Of a DNA stretch of 64,000 nt, positions 12,839-63,559 are shown piece after piece. The notes below the pieces were generated by a model. It was not told the DNA's origin. It searched no databases and saw only the letters and a list, made by a program, of their open reading frames with translations. This DNA is from Adenophora triphylla var. japonica (taxonomy: Eukaryota; Streptophyta; Magnoliopsida; Asterales; Campanulaceae), in contig JAFEMH010002511.1 of the NCBI GenBank assembly GCA_022495995.1, positions 62,001-126,000 of the forward strand, read 5' to 3'. How positions within the stretch are numbered: position 1 is the stretch's first letter; each line of letters starts with the position of its first letter. Made by a program: the position numbers and the translations under genes.

Positions 12839-13004
12839 TATATATATATATATAGGTAGGTAGGTGTTCAAATGAGAACCATAACAAAATGAGAACCGTG
12901 AGAATCACTTGTATACACTTATTTACAGTAGATACTTAGCTACTGTATACATATACAGTCTACTGTATATGTATACAATAGTTAAGTATCCACTACAAGA
13001 AAAA

Positions 13005-13690
13005 CGACAGTTACCGACGGAAAAATCCGTTACTAAATGTCAAAAATCCGTCACTAAATCAATTTAGTGACGAATTTTAAATGTAAAAAATCTGATGTTA
13101 AAACGTGCGTCACTAAATTTTTTGACGGATTATCGACGGTTCTCAATCAGATTTAGCGACGGAAATTTCCGTCACTAACGTTTTAAAATCCGTCGGTAAT
13201 TTGGTAAAATAAACGACCAATTTAAAGCATTATGTCGACGGATTAGCGACGGAAAATTCCGTCGCTATTTAAACAGTCGTTTTATTTTTTGGACCATTTT
13301 CGTGACGGATTATCGACGGATTATTTCGTCGTTATTTAAATGGTCATTTTATTTTTTTGGACCATTTTAGTGACGGATTATCGACGGATCATTCCGCCGC
13401 TATTTAAATGGTCGTTTTATTTTTTGGACATATTTAGTGACGGATTATCGACGGATAATTCCGTCGCTAAAATTCAAAAATCCGTCGCTAAATATTGGAG
13501 AGGAACGACAGAATTAATGTATTGGCGACATTATTAACGACGGATTTAACGACGGAAATTTCCGTCGCTAAAATTTATTCCACATTTTCACAATATTTTT
13601 AATTTTTTTAAATTTTCTATTTTCAATATTTTTTATTTTTGATATATCAAATTACCGACGGATATTTCCGTCGCTAATTTGATATTTTTT
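13005..13690. repeat. Left subterminal repeats of the CACTA
   Basis: Dozens of copies of the words GACGGATTA, GCGACGGA and TCCGTCGCTA in both orientations, often paired as short inverted repeats around AAATTTCCGTC. In En/Spm such repeats bind the TnpA-like protein; that function is inferred here from the family. Confidence 0.9.
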
Positions 13691-13705
13691 ATTAAAAAAA
13701 ATTAT

Positions 13706-18085: not shown

Positions 18086-18640
18086 TATTGTCACTAATCC
18101 GTCGCTAACCTAAAATATAAATTTAATAATTATTTTAAATAATTTACCGACGGATTTTAATCCGTCGGTAATTAATTCCGCCACTAATCCGTCGCTAACC
18201 TAAAATATAAATTTAATGATTATTTTAAATAATTTAGCAATGACTCAAATCCGTCGGTAATAATATGTAATTAATTTACCGACGGATTTTAATCTGTCGG
18301 TAATTAAATCCGTCACTAATCCGTCGCTAACCTAAAATATAAATTTAATATTTGTTTTAAATAATTTAGCAACGACTCAAATCCGTCAGTAAAAATATCC
18401 GTCGCCATTCCGTCAAAAATTCGTCGGTAAAAAAGTGCGTAAATTTTTGGCGCCAAAATGGTGACAGATTAGAGACGAAATGGAATCCGTCGGCATATCC
18501 GTCACTAAATCCGTCGGTAATCTCGTCCTAATTTCGTTTTTTGTTTTTCACCCCAGGTCATTGCTATTTCGTCACTAATCCGTCGGTATTAGTGACGGAT
18601 TTATTTTCGTCACTAATTTCCGTCAGTATCTGTCAGTTTT
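18086..18640. repeat. Right subterminal repeats of the CACTA
   Basis: Three tandem copies of a roughly 120-bp unit (ATCCGTCGCTAACCTAAAAT near 18105, 18190 and 18318) are followed by scattered CCGTCGGTAA words in both orientations up to the terminus. Confidence 0.9.
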
Positions 18641-21436: not shown

Positions 21437-23415
21437 ATGGAAGAAGGACACACTGCTAGCAATACTCCTGATCCGAATAATATTCTTGTGGAGGAGACTT
21501 ATGGCAACGCTGGGACTTCTATTCCTCTTGCCAATGGGAGACTGCCACCTCCTCCACCATTGATTGATGGATTGCCCCCACTAGGAATGAATATGCGTTC
21601 TAGTGGGCAGCCAGTAATTGAGGTACTGCCCAACCCTCCCCGTCGTCGACGACGAGGAATACCTGCCGATAGTCAGGCGGGGAGGAATGCTGCCCAGGGG
21701 GCACTAGAGCTTTCCTCCCACAGATTGATCGCAGAACTCTCTTGCATCAACAGATGGACACTCTGCAACATAATTATGAAACACAAAATTCCTTGCTACA
21801 GTTGGATCCAGAACACTCCCTAGCTGAATTTATAAGACCTACGAGGACTGAAAATTCTCTTGGAGGGGAAAGTAATCTTGATAGGCGTGGAAGTCGGGGG
21901 AATAGAGAAAATCTTCCTCCTGGCCAACATCCCCCTCGTCATGATATTGCTGGTAGATCCAAGCAAAACCCCCCAAGATATCCCTCCTAATTATAAGGCA
22001 CCTGGACGTGGAAACACAAGAAACGAGGTAGACATAAGAAATCAATTGAAAAATCAAAATGAACAGGAGGTTAATTCTGCTGACTTAAGAGCAAGGCTCA
22101 GTCATGCAAGGAAAAAACCCTCCTTGTCGTAATACCTCTCCTCGGTATAGGAGCCATGCTCGACCTAGGAGTCCTCCTCGGCATAGGATCCCTCCTCATC
22201 TTAGGACTCCTCCCCGTCCAGAAATGGCTCCTAGGAGGGACAGAACACCTCCTCATCATTTCAGACCCTTGAATGGCAAATCACCATCTGTGCTTGGGGA
22301 TAATCACCAACAACATGAGAAACAAAGTCAAGTGAATGGGCACAGAGAAAAAGAAAAGACACAACGTAGTTCCCACTTTACCTCGGGGATCGGTGAAGAG
22401 ATATACTACTATTGAAAAAGAGACTAGACGAAATGGAGATGGGGAGGAAAGAAGTAGATGATGATACCAGTGCCACCCGTTCTTTCTCCCAACGAATTAA
22501 TGATCTACCTCCCAATCCTGCTTTTAAGATCCCCAGTTTGGAAAAAAAAATGTTGGGACCACAGACGCACGAAATCATGTGAAAAGTTTTTAATACACCA
22601 TAGCCCTACTCACCAAGGCAGATGATATACTTTGTAAGGCTTTCGCGAGTACCTTCTCCAGAACAGCTTTATCTTGGTTTCGTGAGCAAAAGAAGGGAAG
22701 CATCGATAGCTGAAAAATTATGAGTAGGAGGTACCTGGACCACTTTGCAACAACCAGGAAAAGAAAGAAAAGATTGATAGACCTTGCCAACATCGAGCAA
22801 GGTAAAAATGAAATCACGCTAAGTTATTACAATCGGTTTAGAGCCATGGATGACCAGATATAGAAAAGCCTAACTGACCGGGAGGTGATTGTCTGCTTCA
22901 ACTCCGGACTGAGATTCGGACAATTGATCTACGAACTCTCTGCCAGGGACCCTAAATCGAAATCTGATTTGTATAACGTGGCCTACGCTATAGCTATGGC
23001 AGAAGATAAAAGTAAGAAGAGATCTGAAAAATCGGAAGCTGATGCAGTTGGCACCAACCAGGCTTCCAACGGAAGTAACTACAAGGGGAAGAATAGGACC
23101 CGGACTACTGAAAAAGCCAAGGTCTTCACCCCACTCACTAAACCTATCACGGAGATCATGCAATTGGTAAACCTACCAGATCCCCGACTACTCAGTGATC
23201 AATCCAAACATGTCCGGGACAATTACAAGTGATGTGCCTTCCACAAGTATCATGGACATGACACGGATAATTGCATCTCCTTTAAAAGAATGATCCAGAG
23301 ATGGGTGGTTGAAGGCAAACTCGATCTCTACGTTATGAGGAAAGATAACAAGCGAAAAAGAGATGACGATGACGAAGATGATGAAAGGGAAGACAGGCCT
23401 CCTAGGGATAAACAC
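21437..23415 (+). pseudogene. Tat-like gag region
   Basis: The broken reading frames run through the gag-like start (MEEGHTASNTPDPNN), a proline/arginine-rich segment and a capsid-type stretch with FNSGLRFGQLIYELSARDP near 22895. They end at a zinc-knuckle-like CAFHKYHGHDTDNC near 23233-23275 and a Lys/Asp/Glu-rich tail. An in-frame TGA at 23230-23232 directly precedes the knuckle. At least three other frame changes occur upstream (near 21780, 22130 and 22430). The order and motifs follow Tat-clade gag. Not functional. Confidence 0.75.
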
Positions 23416-42410: not shown

Positions 42411-42550
42411 TAGGTGCTCAAATGAGAACCGTGAGAATCACTTGTATACACTTGTTTACTGTAGATATTTAGCTAATGTATACATATACAGTCTACTGTA
42501 TATGTATACAGTAGACTGTATACATATACAGTAGACTGTATATGTATACA
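42411..42550. mobile_element. Truncated microsatellite-embedded MITE copy
   Basis: It begins TAGGTGCTCAAATGAGAACC after a TA repeat and stops in another TA repeat after several GTATAC palindromes. It is the left half of the element intact at 42564-42862. Confidence 0.75.
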
Positions 42551-42563
42551 TATATATATATAT

Positions 42564-42860
42564 AGGTAGGTAGGTAGGTGCTCAAATGAGAACCGTGAGA
42601 ATCACTTGTATACACTTGTTTACAGTAGATATTTAGCTAATGTATACATATACAGTCTACTGTATATGTATACAGTAGTTAAGTATCTACTGTATACAAG
42701 TGTATAATCACACGTATACATTTGTATACAGTAGCTAAGTATCTACTGTATATGTATACAGTCTATTGTATATGTATACAGTAGCTAAATATCTACTGTA
42801 TACAAGTGTATACGAGTGATTCTCACGGTTCTCATTTTAAACGTTCTCATTGGAGCGTGA

Positions 42861-48844: not shown

Positions 48845-49925
48845 ACTCATGTGAGAACATGAATACTCGTCTCATCCATGAGACGGGTCGGATCCATGAC
48901 CCGCGCCAAGGTGTATCAGCGCTCGCCCAAGTCATTTCATGCCTTGGTCCAGTTCAGCCAACAGCCTTGTGAAAAGTAATAGTTACTATAATATAATGTA
49001 ATAATTGTATGCATATAAAGTAATAGTTTGTATACATTAAAGTAATACATATATACAGAAAAGTAATAATATTTTTTCCTATGTTTTCTTCGTTTGGCAA
49101 ATGTAATAACTTATGTATATGAATGTAATAGTTTATACAAGTAAATGTAACACTTTGATAGATGAAATTGTAACATATTTCTATAGATAATGTAATACTT
49201 TTACATGTATCATGATAAATTTGAACTCATTTTGTAACTTATTGTTTGAAAACATATAGATATCTATACATATGTGTTACAATTATGTACAAATACTATT
49301 ACATATAAATAACACGTTTATTACATTTTAGATATAATAAGTATTACTTTTGCCAAACGAAGAAATCATAGGGAAAAACACTATTACTTTTCTGTATATA
49401 TGTATTACTTTAATGTATACAAATTATTACTTTATATGCATACAATTATTACATTATGTCATAGTAACTATTACTTTTCACAAATCGAAAAAAAAAAAAT
49501 TAAAAATTTAAAAAAAAAACACTATTACTAATTATTTTGCTGATCCCAGCGGTCAATATGAGCGTCTGAGTGATGCGAACATACCCCAGAAATTTGACGA
49601 CGATCCAACGGTTAATGAAGCGGAAATTTGATTTTTAATATAGCGAATTTTTGGAGATTTTCGCCAGTTTTCGCCGCCGGCCATTTCTCCCTCTCCGGCA
49701 ATTATTTGGAAGATCCCAACGGTCATCATGTGCGCCTAGGGGATGCGACCAAAGCCCAGAAGTTTCACGACGATTCAACGGTTAACGAAGTCGGAATTTG
49801 ATTTTTACATATGCGATTTTGGTTTGTATTTTGCCCAGAACCTAAGCCCATTTGACGGATCATGTCTCATGGATCATGGATCGACCCGTCTCATGCATGA
49901 AACGGATCCCCTTGTTCTCATTGGG
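48845..49925. mobile_element. Fold-back element with nested inverted and direct repeats
   Basis: Outer arms (48850-48900 and 49862-49922) share GAGACGGGTCG-GATCCATGA and GAGAACA words. Inner arms of about 142 bp, 48969-49111 and 49340-49481, are over 90 percent identical as inverted repeats. They are built of AAAGTAATA words and TTCTTCGTTTGGCAAA, separated by 228 bp. A direct repeat of about 115 bp (GATCCCAGCGGTCAATATG at 49543, GATCCCAACGGTCATCATG at 49713) lies between inner and outer right arms. I found no clear target duplication, so the class is open (Mutator-like fold-back is possible). Confidence 0.6.
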
Positions 49926-51829: not shown

Positions 51830-52389
51830 TAAAAATATAAAGCTTATTTCATTTGAAATGTCTTAAAACTAAAATAGGATATTTGTTATGGGAATAAATG
51901 AATGATTGTTTCTTCTAAGGTAAATTATATTACCATTTACCGGCCCTTAAGTTTGAATAAATATTATTGTTCTCGAGGTTTGGTTTGATTTCGCCACACC
52001 CTATACCTTCTACTCCGTACCAGTGTTATGTACACAAAATAACCATTTTATCCTTAAATCTGTAAAATGAAAAGAAAGAGGGTAAAATTGTCACTTTGTT
52101 TACATAGATTGATTAAAAAAAAAAAAAAAAAAAAAGACAATTAAATTAAATCTTAAAAAAAAGTGATAATTATTCAAAATTAAAAAATGGAAAGTAGAAT
52201 TAACAATCTCTTCCTAGTTAGTGGGATAATAAAGAAAAGAAAACCAAACTTTTTGCTCAACCTTTTGAGGGAAGGGTATTTTGCGAAATCTTTCGGCCGT
52301 AGATTATAAATTCACATGGATACATTGCGGAAAGGGACACAACAAACAAAAGGAAAATGTTAAAGTTAAAGGTAGTGCACATGGCTTAG
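51830..52389. other. Intergenic DNA
   Basis: There is an A-rich run near 52115-52135. No gene or defined element. Confidence 0.6.
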
Positions 52390-53785
52390 AAAAGAGCTAA
52401 GGACCCTAAGGCCCACTTTCCAAATCAATATCCCATTTTAACCCATATGAGATTAAAATTCCTAATAAACCCAAAGGCCCATTACTCTCAAACGGCGTTA
52501 ATAGATGGAGCGGCGTTAATTGGCTAAAATCTCGCCGGATCCGTGATTTCTGGTACTATAGTCGTAATCCAAACCTCAATTCCGGCCAAAATCAAACACA
52601 AATCCACGCGAGGGAGGTAATCGGCGAAGAGATTGAAGATCGCCTCTGATAACATCCGACCTAGAATTTCGTTATACCGATTTTGTAAGGTAAGTTTTAA
52701 TTTTTTTTTTTTTTAATTGGAATTCGTTTTTGAAAGTTTTCATCAATTCATATAAGATGTTGTTGACAGTGTTCATCAATTCATAGCAATTGTTGTGTGA
52801 AAAAATTTGTTACGAGACACTTGATTTGTCCGATAACAAATGGTATCGGACCTTTCAATGGCATTTTGATTTCGATTGTTGATGTCTTATGTGATTCGTA
52901 ATGTGTCTTATATCGGCTGCTATAGGATCCGATCTAGTGTTTATATGATTACTGAGTTTACATGCTTCATTTTGTTTTAGATTATTTATGTGGCAGATGA
53001 CCTGTTCCAGGTCCTATACTATTTGTTATAGGAGATGTTATAGTGTGCATTTCATTGTTTGATTAGAAGATAATTTGATTCAGTTTAATTGTTTGAGTAT
53101 GAGTTATATGCCTTGTAATAAGTCCTATACTCCTTAATAAAGGATCTGTTGAAGTGTTCATACGATTTTGAGACAAATTTCTTCATTATATTTTTTATTA
53201 TTAATGTGACAGAGGACTCGTTAAAAGTCCTATAGCATTTGCTATATGACCTGCTCTATTTTGCTTTTTGATTTGGATTTGAATTGATTTATATTGCATA
53301 TGACCTGTTATCGTGTTCATATTATTTTGAGGGACGAATAGAGGAGATGATTTATGTTGCAGATGATTTATGTTGCTATAAGACCTGGATAAGTATTGAT
53401 CCATTAACACTGTTCCAGGTCCTATATCCTTTGTTATATGACCTGTTATAGAATGCATTTTGTTTGTCTAATGTTTAAGTTGCATATGACCTGTTTTAGG
53501 TCCTATATCCTTTGTTATAAGACCTGTTCCAGTGTACTATATTCTTTGTTATAGGACCTATTATATGTTGCATATGACTGCTTCAGTCCTATATCCTTTG
53601 TTATAGGACTTGTTATAGTTTCCTATACATCTTGCTAAAGGACCTCGCTCTATTTTGTTTTTTGATTTGGTTGTGCTATGATACAAGAATATTTGATATA
53701 TAAAATGATTTATATCATTATATATGAATTGTACTTTTTGTGGCTTATGTTTTATTTTTTGTTTTTGTATGAAAAGGTGGAAAAC

Positions 53786-56700
53786 TACGATGTCTCGCAA
53801 ATAAGAGAATGACCCGTATGAATACAGGAAAACAATTGAAGATGAAACAGCTTAAATCAGTAGATGTTACACTGTCTAAAGATAGGAGAATTGTACGTTA
53901 CTCACCAAAGAAAACGGTAGAATCAAAAAAACAAAAGCAAAAGGAACATCTAAAAGTGCAAAGGGACTCACCTGGATCCCTTGTTTGCATCTAACCTCCA
54001 TTCTATATCATCTATCTTGACAGAGGTTGATTTAAGGGAATCTCATTTAAACAGTTGAAGATATCACCTTTCTTCAACCTATTCAATTCTATAAACTCAA
54101 ACAAAGATGTTAACTTGAGGAAGATGGACTCAACAATAGAAGATTTGATCAAATGCTACAAGCCAAAGGAAAGGAAATTTTTTTGCCGGGCAAAGTTTTG
54201 GTTGGGTTGAGTGCAAGTGATGTAACATCTATATTTCGTGTTGTTTCGGAAGTGAATTGATAGATATGAAGAAAAAAAGGGATAGGCACTCACTTGGGAT
54301 AGTTCGAGAGGCTATTCCCAAACTGTAAAGCAAATGAAATAACCATGAAAAAAGTGAAGGAAAACTTGAGAAGGCCGGCTTTGAGTGTAGTGAAAGAGAA
54401 GTTGATATAGGAGACGTTGTGAGATTGCCGAATCTCATAGCATTGGGGTCTGCTTTTCTTTGCTTCAAAGGGTGAGGTAATGTCTCCGGGTTTCTTTATT
54501 ATGTGGATGATTTGGAAAGAATGAAGAGCTATGATTGGTCAAGCGCGATTGTAGATAACTTGCTTCAGTCTTTAGATGAGAAATATAAATCACCGATCCT
54601 CGTTGTTGGATGTGTATCAATCTTACCGGTAATAACATTTTAAATTTATATCTCTAATTTTATTTTAGTTACTATTATTTACTATAAGTTAGGTCCTATA
54701 TGACTGATCATATGTCTCTTTATTTTGTAAATGTAGTATTGGTTTAACGAGCACACAAAGGTGATGAATGCAACAAGAAACTTGCTTCCAAGGTGTATGA
54801 AGTGGGAAGTATCAAAGAAAATTGCCAATTTCAAGGATTTTATCAAAAACTTGAGAAGTGATCAGGTATAAAACACCATGACGATGTTATGTAATAAATT
54901 GTTTAGTATTCTCATATCCTATACCAGTTTCTATAGGACAATTCATAGTGTTGATATCAGTTGATATAGGACCTGCTCTATTTTGCATTGAATGGTCCTA
55001 TATCAACTGATATAGGACCATTCAAATTCTTATAAAATTGGTATATGATTTTTTTGAGGTCCTATATCACTTGATATATGACCATGCAATGGACCTTTTA
55101 GCTGCGAATATGAGTTTGTTAAGTCCTATACTAGTTGATATAGGACCCTTCATAGTGTTGTCATGTCCTATACCAGTTCCTATACCATTTGCTATATGAC
55201 CATTGAATTGTTTATATTATGTTCTCAGGTCCTATAGCATTTGCTATATGACCATTCAATGGTGTTATAGCAAATGTATGGGGTGTTAGTAATTCTTATA
55301 ATACATGTATTCATTTCTTATAGGTTCGAGTTGAAGAGCTAGCATTGACAGATGAAGAGAAGTTGTTGTTGATGGATAAACCAAATGAGGATGGAAAAGA
55401 TAATGATTTTGAAATGTCTGTGGAAAATCCTGGTACTGGAAAAAGGATTGGGGGAGAGGATGAAGGAGGAGGTACGAATCTTCAAGATTTAATGGATAAT
55501 TTTGAATTAATTTTGGGGACCAATCTGACACCTACTGATAAAGGTCAGGGGAGTGGGACAAATGAATTGATTGAGTTGAGGAGTGAAAATGAAAGTTTGA
55601 AAGCTGGAGAAAGCTAAGTTGCTGGAAAAGATTAAGGAGTTTGAACTGAAAACAAACAACGCGATTGAAGAGGGACATGTTTTTTTCGTCGCCGAGGTTG
55701 AGATGAGGAGAACTTTTGACGACGCGCTTAAAGTAAAGGACAGAGAGATTGAGAAACTTAAAAGTTTGCTAGAGGAGAAAGACAGAGAAATAAAAAATTT
55801 GGAGGAAAAATTGGCTGAAAAAGACAAGGACAGCTTTGCAAAAAAAAACCAAAATGCGATGAAGAAAAGTGGTATGGACATTGTGGCCGCGAGGGATCAG
55901 ACAAGAAAATTGATACTATTGGATCAATGGAAAGAAGAGTAAAGGAGAGAGGGGATAAGAGGAAGAGGAAGGTGGATCCTGATTACACGTATGACGGAAA
56001 GAAGAAAAGGCCACAGGTTTCAAACATGGAGGGAAAGAAGAAAAAAGAAAAAGAAGAATTGGTTGGGAGTAAAAGTGTTTTAGATGTTGATGAATTGGAA
56101 GACAGAAATGTTTTCTTACCAACATTTAATGAGAACTTTAGTCTCACAACCAAGTCAATGGATGATGACACAAAGAGAAAATTTACAGATTTATGCAGAA
56201 AACTCGCGCGTCCGTAAGTACCACTTTTATCAAATATTGTTTTCATTTATTAAAAATTTTGATGATAATAGAAATGTATTTTTTTTTGTGTGTTTCCAGT
56301 GATAGTGTATGGTACATTTCGGGATTGCATGTGGCGATGTGGCAACTGTGGGAATTGGCTCATGATATGATGACCGAAGCTGCGGTACAAACATTTTTTA
56401 TCCCTGAACTATTTTGCATGAATGCTCTAATTTTGCTTTTTGATTTGGATGTGCCTTGTTTGGTTTTTGCTTATAAAATTTGCTATAGGACCTGTTCTAC
56501 TGTTAATATGCTTCTGAGTTAACATGCTTCATTTTGTTTGCAATTATTTATGTGACATAGGACTGTTCCAGTCCTATAACATATGCTATAGGACCTCTTA
56601 TATATTGTTTCCAATTCACTCTTCAATTCACTCTTATAACATATGCTTCTGAGTTGACATATGCTTCATTTTGTTTGCAATTCACTCTTATAACATATGC

Positions 56701-58514
56701 TATAGGTCCTATAACATATGCTATAGGACCTGTTCCAGGTCATTTAACATATGCTATAGGACCTCTTATATATTGTTAACATGCTTCATTTTGTTTGCTT
56801 TTTGATTAGTTTAGAATTATGGTCCTTTGGTACACTTTGACTGTTTCTTTGCTTCTCTACTTCCTCTGTAATTTGTACATAGCTTTTGCTCCATGTTGGC
56901 GCGTTGCTTGAATTTATAAAAAGAACTTGGTAGTTGTTGCAAGCATGCAATTTTGCAGGTAAAGGATCACTTTAGGGGAATCATGTTGAGATTATGAGTG
57001 GAGTGACTGATAAACATTGTGTACAGGAAGTTCAATTGGTATGTCGTGGTGTAGCCAATGAAAGGGTTATAGATTCATCTATTTGTATTAAGTTGTCAAC
57101 ATAATAATTGTATCCATATGCCTTGTATTTCATACATTCTGACTTGGTTTCATAAACATCTCCCATATAGTACATATTTTATATATGAATCTACAAATTT
57201 ATAAGGGATATGGACCATGATTATGTGAGGTTGTTACAAAAGTCTGATGTAGGTATGAAATCATTGTTAAAGGTTTTACAGAAATGATATGTTGTGCATT
57301 TGATACCTAAATCAAACTTTTGTTTGCAATTATTTATGTGACATAGGACCTGTTTCAGGTCCTATAACATATGCTATAGGACCTGTTATAGTGTGCAATT
57401 ATTTATGTGACATAAGACATGTTCCAGGTCTTATAATCTTTGCTATAAGACCTGCTATTTTTTGCTTTTTTATTTGGATGTGCATTAATATAGGTCCTAT
57501 AACTTTTGCTATAAGACCTGAACAAGTATTGATCCAGTAACAATTGTTGTATTATTAATGGAATTTTAGGTAATGGATGCTTATCTAAACATTTTGAGGG
57601 ACAAATACAAGAAACTCCCCCCTCCATCTGGTGGACGACAAAGGTCAAAAGTTAATTTTGTATCAAGTTTTGCTACCGTAAGTCTTATTTATTGATTGAA
57701 AAGATACTTACACCTCACATTTTTTTTTATTAAAGTTAATTATCATCTTTATGCTTACATTTAAAATTTATTTGTTTCAAGCAATGGTTGAAGGACAAGA
57801 ACTCAGGAGAAATACAGAAAGGAATAAACGAGGTCATCAAACAATTTGCGGATGATGAAACAATTTATATATTGTTTCCAATTCACTCTTCAAGGAATGA
57901 TCGTGGTGTCGGGTGTAACGATCATTGGACATTGCTAGTGCTTGACACGAAAATGGGGAGTACAAATTTTACAACTCCATGAAGAGGATAAAAGGAAAAG
58001 ACTACTATGCAACACACGGAAAACTAATGGTAATATTTTATATATGAGCTGTAATATGTTGGGTATATTGTTACAAGGACATATAGCAACTGCTATAGGA
58101 CCTTTAAAATGCTTTCTAGCTTTGTATATGACGGTGCCAGGTCATATACCAACTGCTATAGGACCATTCAAAATTCTATTTTTAAATTTTTTGAATTCTC
58201 CGATAACCTGTTGTTTGATTTCACGTATAATAATTGATTGCTTTTTTCTATTTCAGTTTGATCATGTCAGGGCTTTGTACAAACGAATAGAGGAGACTCA
58301 AAAGGACGTGGATACTTTCATAGACTTGAAACGCGGAGACATTCCACAACAGCGAGATGATAGTTTGGATTGTGGAATAATCGTCCTGATGGAAGCAGAG
58401 GAGATGTTTGATAAAGGAGTTATTAGCAAGACGTATGAAGCCGATGCTGTCTCTAAGTATAGGGTGAAAATGATACAAGACATTTTAGCAAGTCCACATT
58501 GTCCTCATCATTAG
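53786..58514 (+). pseudogene. Ulp1-like (peptidase C48) gene of the MULE
   Basis: Ulp1-type cysteine proteases cleave SUMO or related modifiers; why MULEs carry one is not known. Exons: 5' leader to about 52687 (donor AAG-GTAAG), 53776-54628, 54737-54865, 55324-56213, 56300-56384, 56959-57038, 57570-57677, 57782-58029, 58257-58514. The start is MSRK at 53790 followed at once by TAA. The middle exon has a Lys/Glu coiled coil (about 55700-55840) and a basic KRKRKVDPDY stretch. The protease part has catalytic His in DHWTLLVLDTK (CAT 57923-57925) and Cys in DSLDCGIIV (TGT 58371-58373) with Gln upstream (PQQRDD). The aligned Asp position appears as Asn in YNSM. Frameshifts near 53804, 54000, 54170-54480, 55615, 55920 and 57955 make it inactive. 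It converges with the transposase gene. Confidence 0.8.
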
Positions 58515-58719
58515 TAAATTAAACATCTTATTTTCTTTTTGGATGGAATGATAAAAATTGGTGGTTGTTGAACAGTTTACTTTTATATTTGATATATGTT
58601 GGATAAATATATTCCAAATATTTTTAAGGTCTCATAGTGGGTTTTTGCTTATAAAATTTGCTATAATACCTGTTATACTGATAATATGCTTCTTTATTAA
58701 TTCTTTATTGAGCTCTGGT

Positions 58720-58836
58720 GCAATGGCGGTCGCCCATGATGGGTGTGGGCGGTCGCACATTACGACAGCTACTTCTATCTTCAGAAAACATCACACCTGG
58801 GCGGTCGCCAATCTTAACATGTGCGGTCGCCCACTC
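58720..58836 (+). repeat. GGCGGTCGCCC palindrome array
   Basis: Four units (ATGGCGGTCGCCCAT, GTGGGCGGTCGCACA, TGGGCGGTCGCCAA, TGTGCGGTCGCCCA) lie in 110 bp, much richer in GC than the surroundings. Confidence 0.8.
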
Positions 58837-58989
58837 CAACAGAGGTTTCAAGGCTTGGTAATCTCTCTAATAGCTATGTATATGATGTTGGCAGGTCATA
58901 TAGCAATTGCTATAGGACCAAAATAGCCCAAGAAAGTGCCAAAATATCCCTAATTAAGATAAATCAAAACATCAGCAATGAAACATAAA

Positions 58990-59215
58990 ACGGAATAAGG
59001 AATAATTGCAATTTGACAGTGAGGCGTGCGCCTGGATGAGTTCATGCGGCCGCCTCAGCGACCGTGGCTAGCTGATCCTTCAGCCCTTGGTGAGGCGAGC
59101 GCCTGGCCTGTGGGATGCGGCCACCTGGAAGGCCGAGAGTTGAAGCTGCTCTGGTGCAAATTGGGGCGGGCGCCTGGGGACTTATGGGGCGGCCGCCTGG
59201 CTGTCTGTTGCTGGA
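58990..59215 (+). repeat. GAGGCGNNCGCCT palindrome array, LTR-related
   Basis: Six GC-rich quasi-palindromes (GAGGCGTGCGCCTGG, ATGCGGCCGCCTCAG, GAGGCGAGCGCCTGG, ATGCGGCCACCTGG, GGGGCGGGCGCCTGGG, GGGGCGGCCGCCTGG) lie in 200 bp. The order and spacers (TATGGGGCGGCCGCCT, CCTGGAAGGCCGA) match the array in the Ty3 LTR at 6790-7020, so this is probably a fragment of a related LTR. Confidence 0.75.
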
Positions 59216-59243
59216 ACACAATATTGAGCTACATCAATGGTCC

Positions 59244-59645
59244 TATAGCAAATGGTATAGGACCTTTCAAAGGCATTATTGCTTTGTATATGATGTTGGG
59301 AGGTCCTATACCAATTGCTATAAGACCAATTAAAGGGCTAATAGCTATGTATATGATGTTGGCAGGTCTTATACCAATTGCTATAGGACCAAATAAAGGG
59401 CTTATAGAGTTTTGTATGATATTGTCATGTCCTATACCAATTGGTATAGCAAATGGTATAGGACCTTTCAAAGGCATTATTGCTTTGTATATGATGTTGG
59501 GAGGTCCTATACCAATTGCTATAAGACCAATTAAAGGGCTAATAGCTATGTATATGATGTTGGCAGGTCTTATACCAATTGCTATAGGACCAAATAAAGG
59601 GCTTATAGAGTTTTGTATGATATTGTCATGTCCTATACCAATTGG
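59244..59645 (+). repeat. 201-bp tandem duplication of palindrome units
   Basis: Positions 59244-59444 and 59445-59645 are near-identical copies, each with three to four palindrome units. Since 201 is a multiple of three, an accidental reading frame stays open across it. Confidence 0.9.
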
Positions 59646-59878
59646 TATAGGACCAATTAGAGGCCTGTTACTACAGGAATAAGCCTGTTACATTTCCTTC
59701 ATACGTAGGTAAAAAAAAAAAACAATTAACAACAAATATTTTAGAATATCGAAAAAATCAATTAACCAAAATTCTGAAATTAAAATGATTGTATAACATT
59801 GTAATGAACACGTGTGTAATGTCAAATAGGACGTTTAAAGAATTAAATTAATAATTATTTTACTAAGAAAACAATGAC

Positions 59879-62516
59879 TCAACTAAAAGTAATTTGCAAT
59901 GGCTCCTTGCATGATCTTTTATTATGATAACCTTCTTTTCCGCATCGACGACATTTCATCTTCCTCTTTGTACCTTCTCCTCTAGAAATGTAGCGATTTT
60001 TCCTTGGCCTACCGGGGGGGCGTTTTGTTTCAGGAGGAAGAACCAAGGATTCCCCATCAACTACAGGAGGACATAATGTAGAAATAGCTGGAATTGACAG
60101 AGCATAAGATTCCCTGTAATTCCTTACCTTGAAATAATCTTGAATGAAGGAAGAAGAATTGTTCTTAAACCCGCCGAAGACGGATATGGAATGAACACAC
60201 GGAAATCCATTCTGCCGCCACAACCCACATGAACATGTGTATTCCCGTATGTTGACAACCATAGAAGGATCCTGAATGAACTTCAAATACATATTCATCG
60301 CAAGCATGAATTATCCATGACCTTCCTTTGTCCGCACATTCCAAGTATACCTTCCGGATGGATGGACACAACACATTTGCCCATGAATTTGATTCTTGTT
60401 TACGTTTGCACATTCTTGACATAATCTTCAAACGTATACCGTCAATCAACTCTACAACAGTGGAGAGATTTATACTCCTTTATCATAGCATTAAATGACT
60501 CACCGCATTTGAGTACAATTCTCCATAACGATTACCTCCAAAATAAGCAATGCATAGTTTTCTTTCGGAAGATTGTTGAAAAACTCGTACACCTTCGTAC
60601 CACCCTCATTTATGATTTCGTCCGTAAGAATGCGAAAGTGCTCGGGTGTTGGAGCTTTTGAAAGCTTAGAAAATTTGTGAAGAATATTGGACCGTACCTC
60701 CTTCGATAACCCACCAAGTTTATTTCAAGGTTGTTTTTTAAATGGAACATACGAGAATGAATGGTGTGAAAACGGCATAACCTCATGAACCGAAGTAATG
60801 ATACCACGATGACGATCCGAAACAAATGTCACTCCTCGCTCGCTATGTAAGGACGGAGATTTTGGAGAAACCACGTCCAATTTTCGGCATCCTCCGATCC
60901 AACCACAAAGCAAAAGCAACATGGAATAGGCCTACAACCAAAACAATTCATAAAAAATTAATTTGACATCATAAAATATGAATAAAAATAAAAACCAATA
61001 TACAAAATGTTAAAACATAAATAAGTTGTCTCATATCACATGGTCTAAGACATTTGATTTGACATATAGCAAGTGATAAAGGACCTGGAAACATCATAAA
61101 CAAATCTATAAAGACATTTGAATTGTCCTATATCAAATAATATAGGACACTTAGCTAACGTAATATACAAAACTATAAGACCTTTGAATGGTCTTATAGC
61201 AAGTGGTATAGGACTGGCACTTCATATATAAAGCTATAAGATCTTTGAATGGTCTTATAGCAATTGGTATAGAACACGTTAACTACATATATAAAGCTAT
61301 CGACCATTGAAGAATCCTATATCAATTAGTATAGGTACTCATATAATCATATACATATGTTATAAGACCTCGAATGAACCTATATCAACTGAACATATAA
61401 AAAAAAATTTAAAAGCATTAATAATAAAATTCTCATACCATTATCTCCATCTTTCACTGTTTGCAAGTAGGGTACCCCGAAAATTCCAGTCAAAAATGTT
61501 GCATCCAAAAATAACAAGGGACGACAAAACTTAAATCCCCGCAAACATGCCCCAAATGCAAAAGCAACGCCGGAAACGAGAAGTCACAGGATCGACTCAA
61601 ACTTCACACAACCATCCTGGATCCACCTCCCTAATTTTATCTCGTATATGCTTTAAGCTTATTATACGCAAACTTTGCCTCGCCAAAAATAATGTTTTTC
61701 GCCTTCTCAACTCGCTCTCCAAACAACCTTGTAATGAACAGTGAGGCCATACTGCTAGCAACGACTTTACAAGAGAAGCAGACTAACATTTGGATCATCT
61801 CTAACCTTATCACGGATAACACTGGAAAGAACATCACATCCCATCCTTTGCCCAAAATCACAACTAATCGCATCCTTGCATATATGATCAGGGATATATT
61901 TCCTTATGTAGAAATATCCACTGCATTTTTCAATTGAGGCATGTATCTTCCATGGACAACCTTTTGATTCTTTGTATGAGCATACAGCCGTAATACGAGT
62001 AGGTTCATTTATCACATAGTTGAAATCAAACCCCACTTCCGTTGCAAACTTACACAATGCATTCCTAAATTCACCAGAGCCACCTTCAAATATCTGGCCA
62101 ATATTTTGTATTGCGTCTGCCCATTCCGCACTTCTCATTCTCTTTTCTTTGTGATAGAAGAATTTAACATTATCATCATTTCTACTACTACTGCCTTCGC
62201 ATAATGTGGAAAATGAATTCTCGAATGAATCACTGACATTACTAACACATATACTCAAATCATTCACATTTATTTCTAGTAGATCAATATTACTACGAGC
62301 AATCATAACACCCATACAGATGAAATCTTGCTCACTAGACAACATGCACGACCTTTTCTCACCTAACAGATATGACATCGAGATTGTCTCCTTTTTCAAA
62401 CTGTTCCATCTGTTGCAACTAAATTCAACAATAGATTCATAAGAATCAAATTGATCAAACCTAGTAACAACCGAAAATCTTCCATAATTCAACATCAACA
62501 TCACATTAGACTCCAT
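59879..62516 (-). pseudogene. MuDR-type transposase of the MULE
   Basis: Transposase for cut-and-paste movement in the nucleus. The start is the ATG at 62516, just after a splice acceptor (TTTACAG). The N-terminal part has the MuDR DNA-binding region (EFRNALCKFATEVGF, CSYKESKGCPWKIHAS, DHICKD). The catalytic core has the first Asp in FLDATFL (61505-61503) and the conserved SDRHRGI (60820-60800). The C-terminus has a SWIM zinc finger (CSCGLWRQNGFPCVH, about 60230-60190), an AT-hook-like KRPPGRPRKN and a zinc knuckle CRRCGKEGYHNKRSC near 59965-59920. An intron at about 60930-61435 holds palindromes. Frameshifts near 61765, 61640, 60845 and 60720 disable it. Confidence 0.85.
61060..61400. repeat. 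GGTCCTATA / TATAGGACC palindrome family, cluster 2
   Basis: About six more units lie in the transposase intron, for example near 61120, 61187, 61247 and 61310. They are more eroded on average than those in cluster 1. Confidence 0.85.
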
Positions 62517-62900
62517 TGAAGGTAAAGTTATTTTATCTGTAAATAAATTCAATCAAAAAATTCATCACAACCTCAAAATTCTGAAGAAAAAACAAATGAA
62601 AATTAATACAAAATATAAACTGAATTCAATCAAGATCATAATTCGGATGTAATACCTTTTTTCCGGATTGATTGAATTGGATGTAAGGATTGCAATTTCA
62701 AAATTCTTCAATAGCGATCCTTAAGAAACGGCATGGATTAAGCGATCGAAAGATTTGATGTTAACGGCGCCGTGAATGTATTTGACCGGTATATGGTATT
62801 TTGGGGTTTAAAGGGATTTTGATTTGGAATATAAAAGGGAGTTGTCTTTTTTAATTTGGGTTGGGTTTTTTTGGGTTATGATTTGAGAAATGTGGGTAAA

Positions 62901-63170
62901 GAGGAATTTTTCCCTTAGAAAATTGCTTTATAGGACCCTCTATTTTGGGAACTTTATCAAACATGGAATCACGTGTTTCAAAATTATATACTCCATATTC
63001 CTCGTAACAAATGTTACAAAATTTGAACACGGAATAATTAATAAAAAATAGTATGATAATAATAGTACAAAATAGAAAGTGGATTTTTTTATGAAATGAT
63101 TTCATTTTAAAAAAATAATGCCCAAAATAACTCACATTTAAAACTATTTTCCAAAATAACCACTTTTTTG
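62901..63170. other. AT-rich intergenic DNA
   Basis: No gene or element ends seen. Confidence 0.6.
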
Positions 63171-63317
63171 AAACTCGATACATGGTGTAGCGATTTCAAC
63201 ACTTGATCGTTGAAACTCGCCAAACCATATAGCGAGTTTAGTTTAACATGGATTAACCGTTTGAATTAATTAACTGTAATTAAGAAAGTCAAACTCGCTA
63301 CACCATGTATCGAGTTT
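63171..63317. repeat. Perfect 23-bp inverted repeat with internal hairpin
   Basis: The first 20 bases AAACTCGATACATGGTGTAG at 63171-63190, plus CGA, are exactly complementary to 63295-63317. The 101-bp loop contains a second hairpin (AACTCGCC...TAGCGAGTT near 63216-63241). No coding sequence. Confidence 0.85.
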
Positions 63318-63559
63318 AGTGTTGGAAATGGGTAACGAAAGTTAAGTTTGACTTAACATTGACCTAACTTCCTAACGAAATTCGTTATGTGTTAACGAAA
63401 TAAGTTACAAAATGTATTCTACATTTAGTGTAAATTATGAAATTCATTTATTGTCTCAAAACCATTTCCGGGTGAATGAGAAATTAATGACAAAAGATTT
63501 GTAACTTAACGAGAGTTGTTTAAAGGGTAAATTAGATCATTTGAATTTAATTGGATTTG

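Follow-up and report, generated by a model that had tools for sequence, protein, structure and literature searches.

Why would a family of short palindromes recur in the introns and the 3′ flank of a transposable element and be missing from its exons? This question is raised by a MULE carried in a 64,000-nucleotide stretch of DNA from Adenophora triphylla var. japonica (hereafter the window), for which a preliminary description had proposed hairpin-forming palindromes and had considered transposase-binding sites, RNA structures influencing splicing or small-RNA production, and a self-propagating micro-repeat. The answer depends on the anatomy of the element, on the distribution and internal constancy of the palindromes, and on whether their two arms vary together.

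The element and its two genes

The MULE extends approximately from position 52418 to position 62829 (no strand assigned) and is bounded by two short terminal inverted matches of 26-27 bp (52418-52444 vs. 62804-62829), first picked up in a wider scan. Their score of 37 was reached in 0.2% of 500 shuffles and in 1.25% of 479 window pairs, both figures being those of narrower stretches picked after the match had turned up; the match is only moderately beyond chance, and the ends of the element may lie at these positions. MULEs are typically recognized by inverted repeats at their termini and by duplication of a target site of about 9 bp. Candidate duplications were examined at the two ends and none was convincing. 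Long terminal inverted repeats were also considered from a lenient alignment (score of 150 vs. at most 115 in 100 shuffles), which was discarded because it is rich in gaps and extends past the element.

On the minus strand, the element bears a transposase gene interrupted by an intron. Its 5′ part (61406..62552), delimited with the help of open reading frames (ORFs), encodes a MuDR DNA-binding domain (DBD_Tnp_Mut, 1.2e-09), and its 3′ part (59879..60933) a SWIM zinc finger (8e-07). Both domains pass the cutoff and the MULE domain (0.085) fails it; the transposase is of the MuDR type, and the element had rightly been called a MULE from its letters. The plus strand carries an Ulp1-like (Peptidase_C48) gene of about eight coding exons (53776..58514), recognized from a C48 profile match and ORFs. 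Its joined exon pieces score 28.3 bits against Peptidase_C48 (cutoff of 20.7), and the last exon by itself 17.1 bits, under this cutoff. A C48 domain encoded inside the element on the strand (+) opposite to that of the transposase (-) is the layout of a KAONASHI-like Ulp1-MULE. Exon borders were set visually, guided by open frames and splice signals, and may be wrong by 1-2 bases.

Neither gene of this copy looks intact: the reading frame of the Ulp1-like gene is disrupted, with a break in exon 8, and the transposase gene appears broken because the pieces of its 5′ part occupy different frames in the ORF list. Therefore, this copy itself is probably unable to supply a protein that would bind the palindromes. 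No DUF1985 was detected (E up to 1) when Ulp1-like pieces covering 54338-54871 and 55324-55617 were joined, a scan whose sensitivity is limited by its coverage of these pieces and by the broken state of the gene. Among 238 candidate relatives of the transposase in a protein collection that we take to be plant-poor, none reached E ≤ 0.001. Among solved structures, the N-terminal pieces gave no match at E up to 10 and the C48 pieces none at E up to 1. BLAST of positions 52000-63400 against the first 52 kb of the window returned four short matches, the longest of 80 bp.

A 26-bp dyad in the introns and the 3′ flank

The palindromes conform to a 26-bp dyad, GGTCCTATA-N8-TATAGGACC, of which 42 units (39 distinct) span positions 52827-61338, and thus begin upstream of the start at 52910 initially given. 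Units were defined by a spacer of 8 and at most 5 arm mismatches in total, no more than 2 of them in the better-matching arm. Four, 14, 10, 6, 6, and 2 units carry 0, 1, 2, 3, 4, and 5 mismatches, respectively (34/42 with at most 3); the set includes degraded units that could be dropped (e.g., 53554, 54692, 54948, 56467, and 56684), and the pairs 53533/53554 and 56684/56705 share a few bases. Under the same definition, the mean over 20 Markov sequences (8,750 bases each) was 0.4 matches (maximum of 3). The family of about 40 units reported in the preliminary description is real. The window outside the array region yields a single match, at 23075, with 5 mismatches. The restriction of the dyad to this MULE, and hence the MULE link that had been proposed, holds within the 64-kb window.

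Other ways of counting gave comparable pictures. With gaps of 6-10 and at most 4, 5, or 6 mismatches, raw matches amount to 45, 55, and 114 in the region vs. 0, 6, and 31 elsewhere. Exact GGTCCTATA-N(3-14)-TATAGGACC occurs four times vs. none in 100 shuffles, and the half-site TATAGGACC, with at most one mismatch, occurs 79 times in the window vs. 12.2 expected. The 8-mer GTCCTATA, counted on both strands, is found 43 times in the non-coding DNA of the element (5,005 bases), and neither in its coding DNA (4,840 bases) nor in bases 1-52000 of the window. A lone perfect half-site TATAGGACC is located at 62929-62937, 100 bp beyond the right inverted match. The exact site has no match in IMG/VR; it occurs in four stretches of GTDB genome contigs, once in each, all titled bacteria, which are taken as chance occurrences. 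Literature searches with the strings GGTCCTATA and TATAGGACC gave, among the matches listed, no title on plant genomes or transposons, and searches on Ulp1-MULEs, or on MULE palindromes and repeats, gave, among the titles listed, no such array.

All 42 units are non-coding under the gene model used here, and a scan of the segments taken as coding returned no unit, in agreement with the confinement to non-coding parts that had been claimed. Introns of the Ulp1-like gene, all on the plus strand, hold 29/42 units. The 5′-leader intron (52691..53775; splice sites by eye, ±2 bp) carries 11 units (52827-53644), intron 2 (54629..54736) a single degraded unit at 54692, intron 3 (54866..55322) seven units (54915-55253) arranged in part as a 64-bp tandem repeat, intron 5 (56386..56959) five units (56467-56763), intron 6 (57039..57570) three units (57358-57518), including the unit at 57427 with both arms changed to match, and intron 8 (58031..58256) two units at a distance of 63 bp. 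Introns 4 and 7 are empty; “nearly every intron,” as the distribution had been put, therefore amounts to six of the eight, one of them with its degraded unit only. Eight further units lie in the 3′ flank (58894..59654, +), between the facing 3′ ends of both genes, and five in the transposase intron (60934..61405, -; units at 61060-61338), where the 63-bp repeat seen in this flank is found inverted.

The internal spacing of the dyad is fixed. A spacer of 8 was found in 16/16 convergent pairs of half-sites less than 40 bp apart (exact except for the free fifth base) and in 27/27 pairs less than 20 bp apart when one mismatch was allowed, which replaces the range of 6-10 bases given earlier. The half-site reads TATA-N-GACC and the centre of the spacer is CAnnTG-like, positions 11 and 16 being kept in 30/39 and 33/39 units and positions 12 and 15 in 30/39 and 38/39. 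Tolerance by position is similar for left arms and reverse-complemented right arms: position 5 (and position 1) is loose, and positions 6-9 are almost invariant. The opposite arrangement, TATAGGACC-N7-GGTCCTATA, also recurs between neighbouring units (eight pairs, one mismatch allowed), so that the phase of a dimer on this DNA is not certain. Unit-to-unit distances are variable and cluster around 31-34 and 61-66 bp.

Positions 59239-59663 form a 63-bp tandem array with two copies of 201 bp that are 100% identical (59244-59650); this perfect duplication in an element with broken-looking genes suggests that the array probably grew or changed recently. Between the 3′-flank repeat and the transposase intron, on opposite strands, identity is 72% over 320 bp; to this same intron, again on the opposite strand, intron 3 is 73% identical (162 bp) and intron 8 is 80% identical (91 bp). 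One 63-bp repeat is common to these four arrays. When the transposase intron is read in the sense of its gene, spacers of the four arrays match better than when reversed in 32/35 pairs, which means that in all three introns concerned (3, 8, and that of the transposase gene) the repeat points in the direction of transcription. The 3′-flank array is oriented like the Ulp1-like gene, yet situated between two facing genes. Spacers of the 5′-leader intron and of introns 5 and 6 look different from those of the four arrays.

Because units were picked by arm similarity, arm conservation in a simple profile is inflated. A comparison between arrays lowers this selection bias without removing it: among 10 tandem repeats drawn from the four arrays that share the 63-bp repeat, identity is 79% in the dyad and 59% in the spacer, the dyad being higher in 34 of 35 non-independent pairs, which lends support, short of proof, to a reading as protein-binding sites.

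Two side observations concern the 3′ flank. Its array is open on both strands (59023-59682, +, 219 aa; 59229-59687, -, 152 aa) owing to a period (63) divisible by three, and these frames are probably not genes. Within the same flank, the segment 58690-59227 has a GC content of 50% vs. 36% for the window, contains GCGGCCGCCTGG-like repeats, and looks like an insertion.

Hairpins, repeats, or protein-binding sites

Perfect arms are able to pair, and the palindromes could be RNA hairpins involved in splicing or serving as a source of small RNAs, or could owe their matched arms to palindrome-templated repair. Two units, at 52827 and at 57427 (the latter close to the example at 57424 cited in the preliminary description), carry matching internal changes in both arms. 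These changes are real, but double changes are not in significant excess overall (6 vs. 4.4 in arm shuffles, p 0.27), and paired cells are as frequent as in the shuffles (281 vs. 280.5, p 0.48). The most variable position forms 17 pairs, fewer than the 20.4 expected by chance. When weak units were removed (31 distinct units with at most 3 mismatches), paired cells numbered 239 vs. 237.1 (p 0.30) and double changes 5 vs. 2.7 (p 0.11). Single-position tests lean toward pairing at position 9 (p 0.045) and position 6 (p 0.052), about as expected from 13 tests on 13 positions. A pair-counting tool found 83.0% of cells paired vs. 82.3%, a value as high in 110/500 shuffles, and the covariation score of 0.089 vs. 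0.081 was equalled by 129/500 shuffles. The mean RNA energy of the units is that of permuted arms (-6.92 in both cases), and G-U pairs on the sense strand (12) are about as frequent as A-C pairs (13), i.e., wobble shows no strand bias. Arm covariation of the kind expected from an RNA hairpin family was not observed over all units. On the basis of arm shuffles, permuted-arm energies, wobble counts, and pair counting, a hairpin or splicing structure was rejected, and so was arm correction by palindrome-templated repair because of the same absence of covariation; taken together, these readings are highly improbable. The preliminary description had itself made its structural reading dependent on a pairing bias among aligned arms, and no significant bias emerged. 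A striking hairpin pattern need not imply RNA structure.

Symmetry without covariation, fixed spacing, and like tolerance of the two half-sites are as a dimeric DNA-binding protein would impose. The units are thus best read as predicted double-stranded DNA sites for a protein with two-fold symmetry, in which each subunit would contact one half-site, TATA-N-GACC, on either side of a rigid 8-bp spacer. They would have multiplied mainly as tandem repeats with periods near 32 and 63 bp and would have been retained solely where no protein is encoded. We infer that the binder is most likely encoded by the element, the first candidate being the product of the Ulp1-like gene, whose introns contain the majority of units, and that the likeliest role is a sequence-specific anti-silencing: bound across the non-coding stretches, the protein would remove methylation from the DNA of its own family or prevent it, in the way VANC proteins act on VANDAL elements.

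Three other explanations compete with the anti-silencing sites just outlined; all of these explanations overlap, and their probabilities do not sum to exactly one. The dyads could be a neutral tandem micro-repeat, exon-free merely because insertions into exons were lost, and the periods near 32 and 63 bp, the perfect 201-bp duplication, and the clear homology between arrays are what such a repeat would show. However, the dyad is better conserved than spacers of the same history in nearly all pairs of repeats, and half-sites keep a rigid spacing when inter-unit distances vary, which makes a functionless repeat rather unlikely. A host DNA-binding factor, e.g., one acting at an intronic enhancer or insulator, would fit the conserved central CA and TG, and the CAnnTG centre resembles an E-box; but the remainder of the window contains just the one match with 5 mismatches, and a host factor appears quite implausible.

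The protein-binding option of the preliminary description is favoured by the pattern; the binder that it named, the transposase, is less so. Sites for a transposase are expected near the ends of its element. Here, counting inward from the inverted matches, the first 400 bp at the left end and nearly 1.5 kb at the right end contain no full unit, only the lone half-site at 62929 being found near the right end, and the majority of units lie in the other gene. In its favour, both genes contain sites, the transposase has a MuDR DNA-binding domain, and hypomethylation of Mu TIRs by maize MURA is reported (PMC10398659). Binding of the dyads by a MURA-like protein, for transposition or for its own regulation, seems on balance unlikely, and would overlap with the anti-silencing explanation if the transposase were the anti-silencer.

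The anti-silencing explanation finds its closest parallel in VANDAL elements. According to Hosaka et al. (2017, PMC5735166), VANC21, encoded by VANDAL21 of Arabidopsis, recognizes a short motif both in vitro and in vivo and causes loss of methylation; it occupies introns as well as intergenic and terminal non-coding DNA of VANDAL21, and its motif regions, often in fast-changing tandem repeats, include the introns of VANC21 and VANB21 and the DNA upstream of VANA21. The present array has the form of such a target, i.e., a short motif, often in tandem repeats, located mainly in introns and otherwise in non-coding DNA of a MULE with a non-transposase gene and changing by tandem repetition. According to a 2026 review, Ulp1-carrying VANC genes (KIU) recognize motifs in the non-coding DNA of the group to which they belong and bring about hypomethylation (PMC13317346). 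Likewise, the element resembles KAONASHI/KIU and the Ulp1-MULEs of melon and grapevine in holding a C48 gene, and KI-MULEs are described with an Ulp1 domain opposite in orientation to mudrA (PMC2528002, PMC13317346); the likeness to KIU is one of gene layout.

Differences are also apparent. The VANC motifs YAGTATTAY and AGTTGTCC are 8-9 bp long and not palindromic as printed (PMC5735166), unlike the 26-bp dyad with its fixed 8-bp spacer. Arabidopsis VANC has DUF1985, whereas the companion gene here encodes C48 and DUF1985 went undetected in the scanned pieces; both points speak against the VANC reading. KI-MULEs are described as non-TIR, in contrast to the short terminal inverted match of this element, although in melon the Ulp1 domain occurs in TIR-MULEs as well (PMC2528002, PMC13317346). 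The array may work like a VANC target array, with no claim of VANDAL membership. Because the plan is shared with VANC systems and KI-MULEs (Ulp1 as second gene, opposite to the transposase, and a uniform intron motif), we consider it an even question whether the units are anti-silencing sites bound by the Ulp1-like product. A narrower proposal, which we hold tentatively and lean against, is that an Ulp1-carrying MULE outside the described VANDALs marks its introns for anti-silencing with a 26-bp palindromic code word read by a homodimer of its own protein; recognition by a dimer through independent half-sites and a fixed spacer would then differ in logic from that of the non-palindromic VANC motifs.

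The sites of TnpA are located near the ends of a CACTA element. Unlike these subterminal repeats, the sites described here are internal and mostly intronic. TnpA of En/Spm and demethylation are named in PMC10398659. The likeness would lie in an element-encoded protein with repeated sites and a link to demethylation. Should the dyads serve in anti-silencing, a single copy would suffice to read the site, which could be tested with one protein and a 26-bp probe; the locus would show how the target code changes between elements, here to a symmetric and probably dimeric code, and might provide a new sequence-specific means of stripping methylation from plant DNA.

Other repeats and CpG content of the window

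The CpG observed/expected ratio is 0-0.17 in introns 3, 5, and 6 and in the 3′-flank array (54866-55322, 56386-57570, and 59228-59665), 0.55 in the 5′-leader intron, and 0.47 in the transposase intron, vs. a background median of 0.69 (n = 89 windows) and a 5th percentile of 0.22 for the AT-rich background; CpG depletion of the arrays could reflect past methylation or mere repeat composition. Other inverted or palindromic structures occur elsewhere in the window. A nested foldback of TACTGTATACATATACAGTA-like palindromes (42420-42837) has 123-nt arms that are 89% complementary, with a related short copy at 12927-12994, and a MITE- or foldback-like inverted repeat (48967-49483) has 157-nt arms that are 90% complementary and separated by 203 nt. 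Short CCGTCG/GACGGA repeat tracts, both inverted and tandem, are found at 13011-13700 and 18092-18531, the first of these being palindromic.
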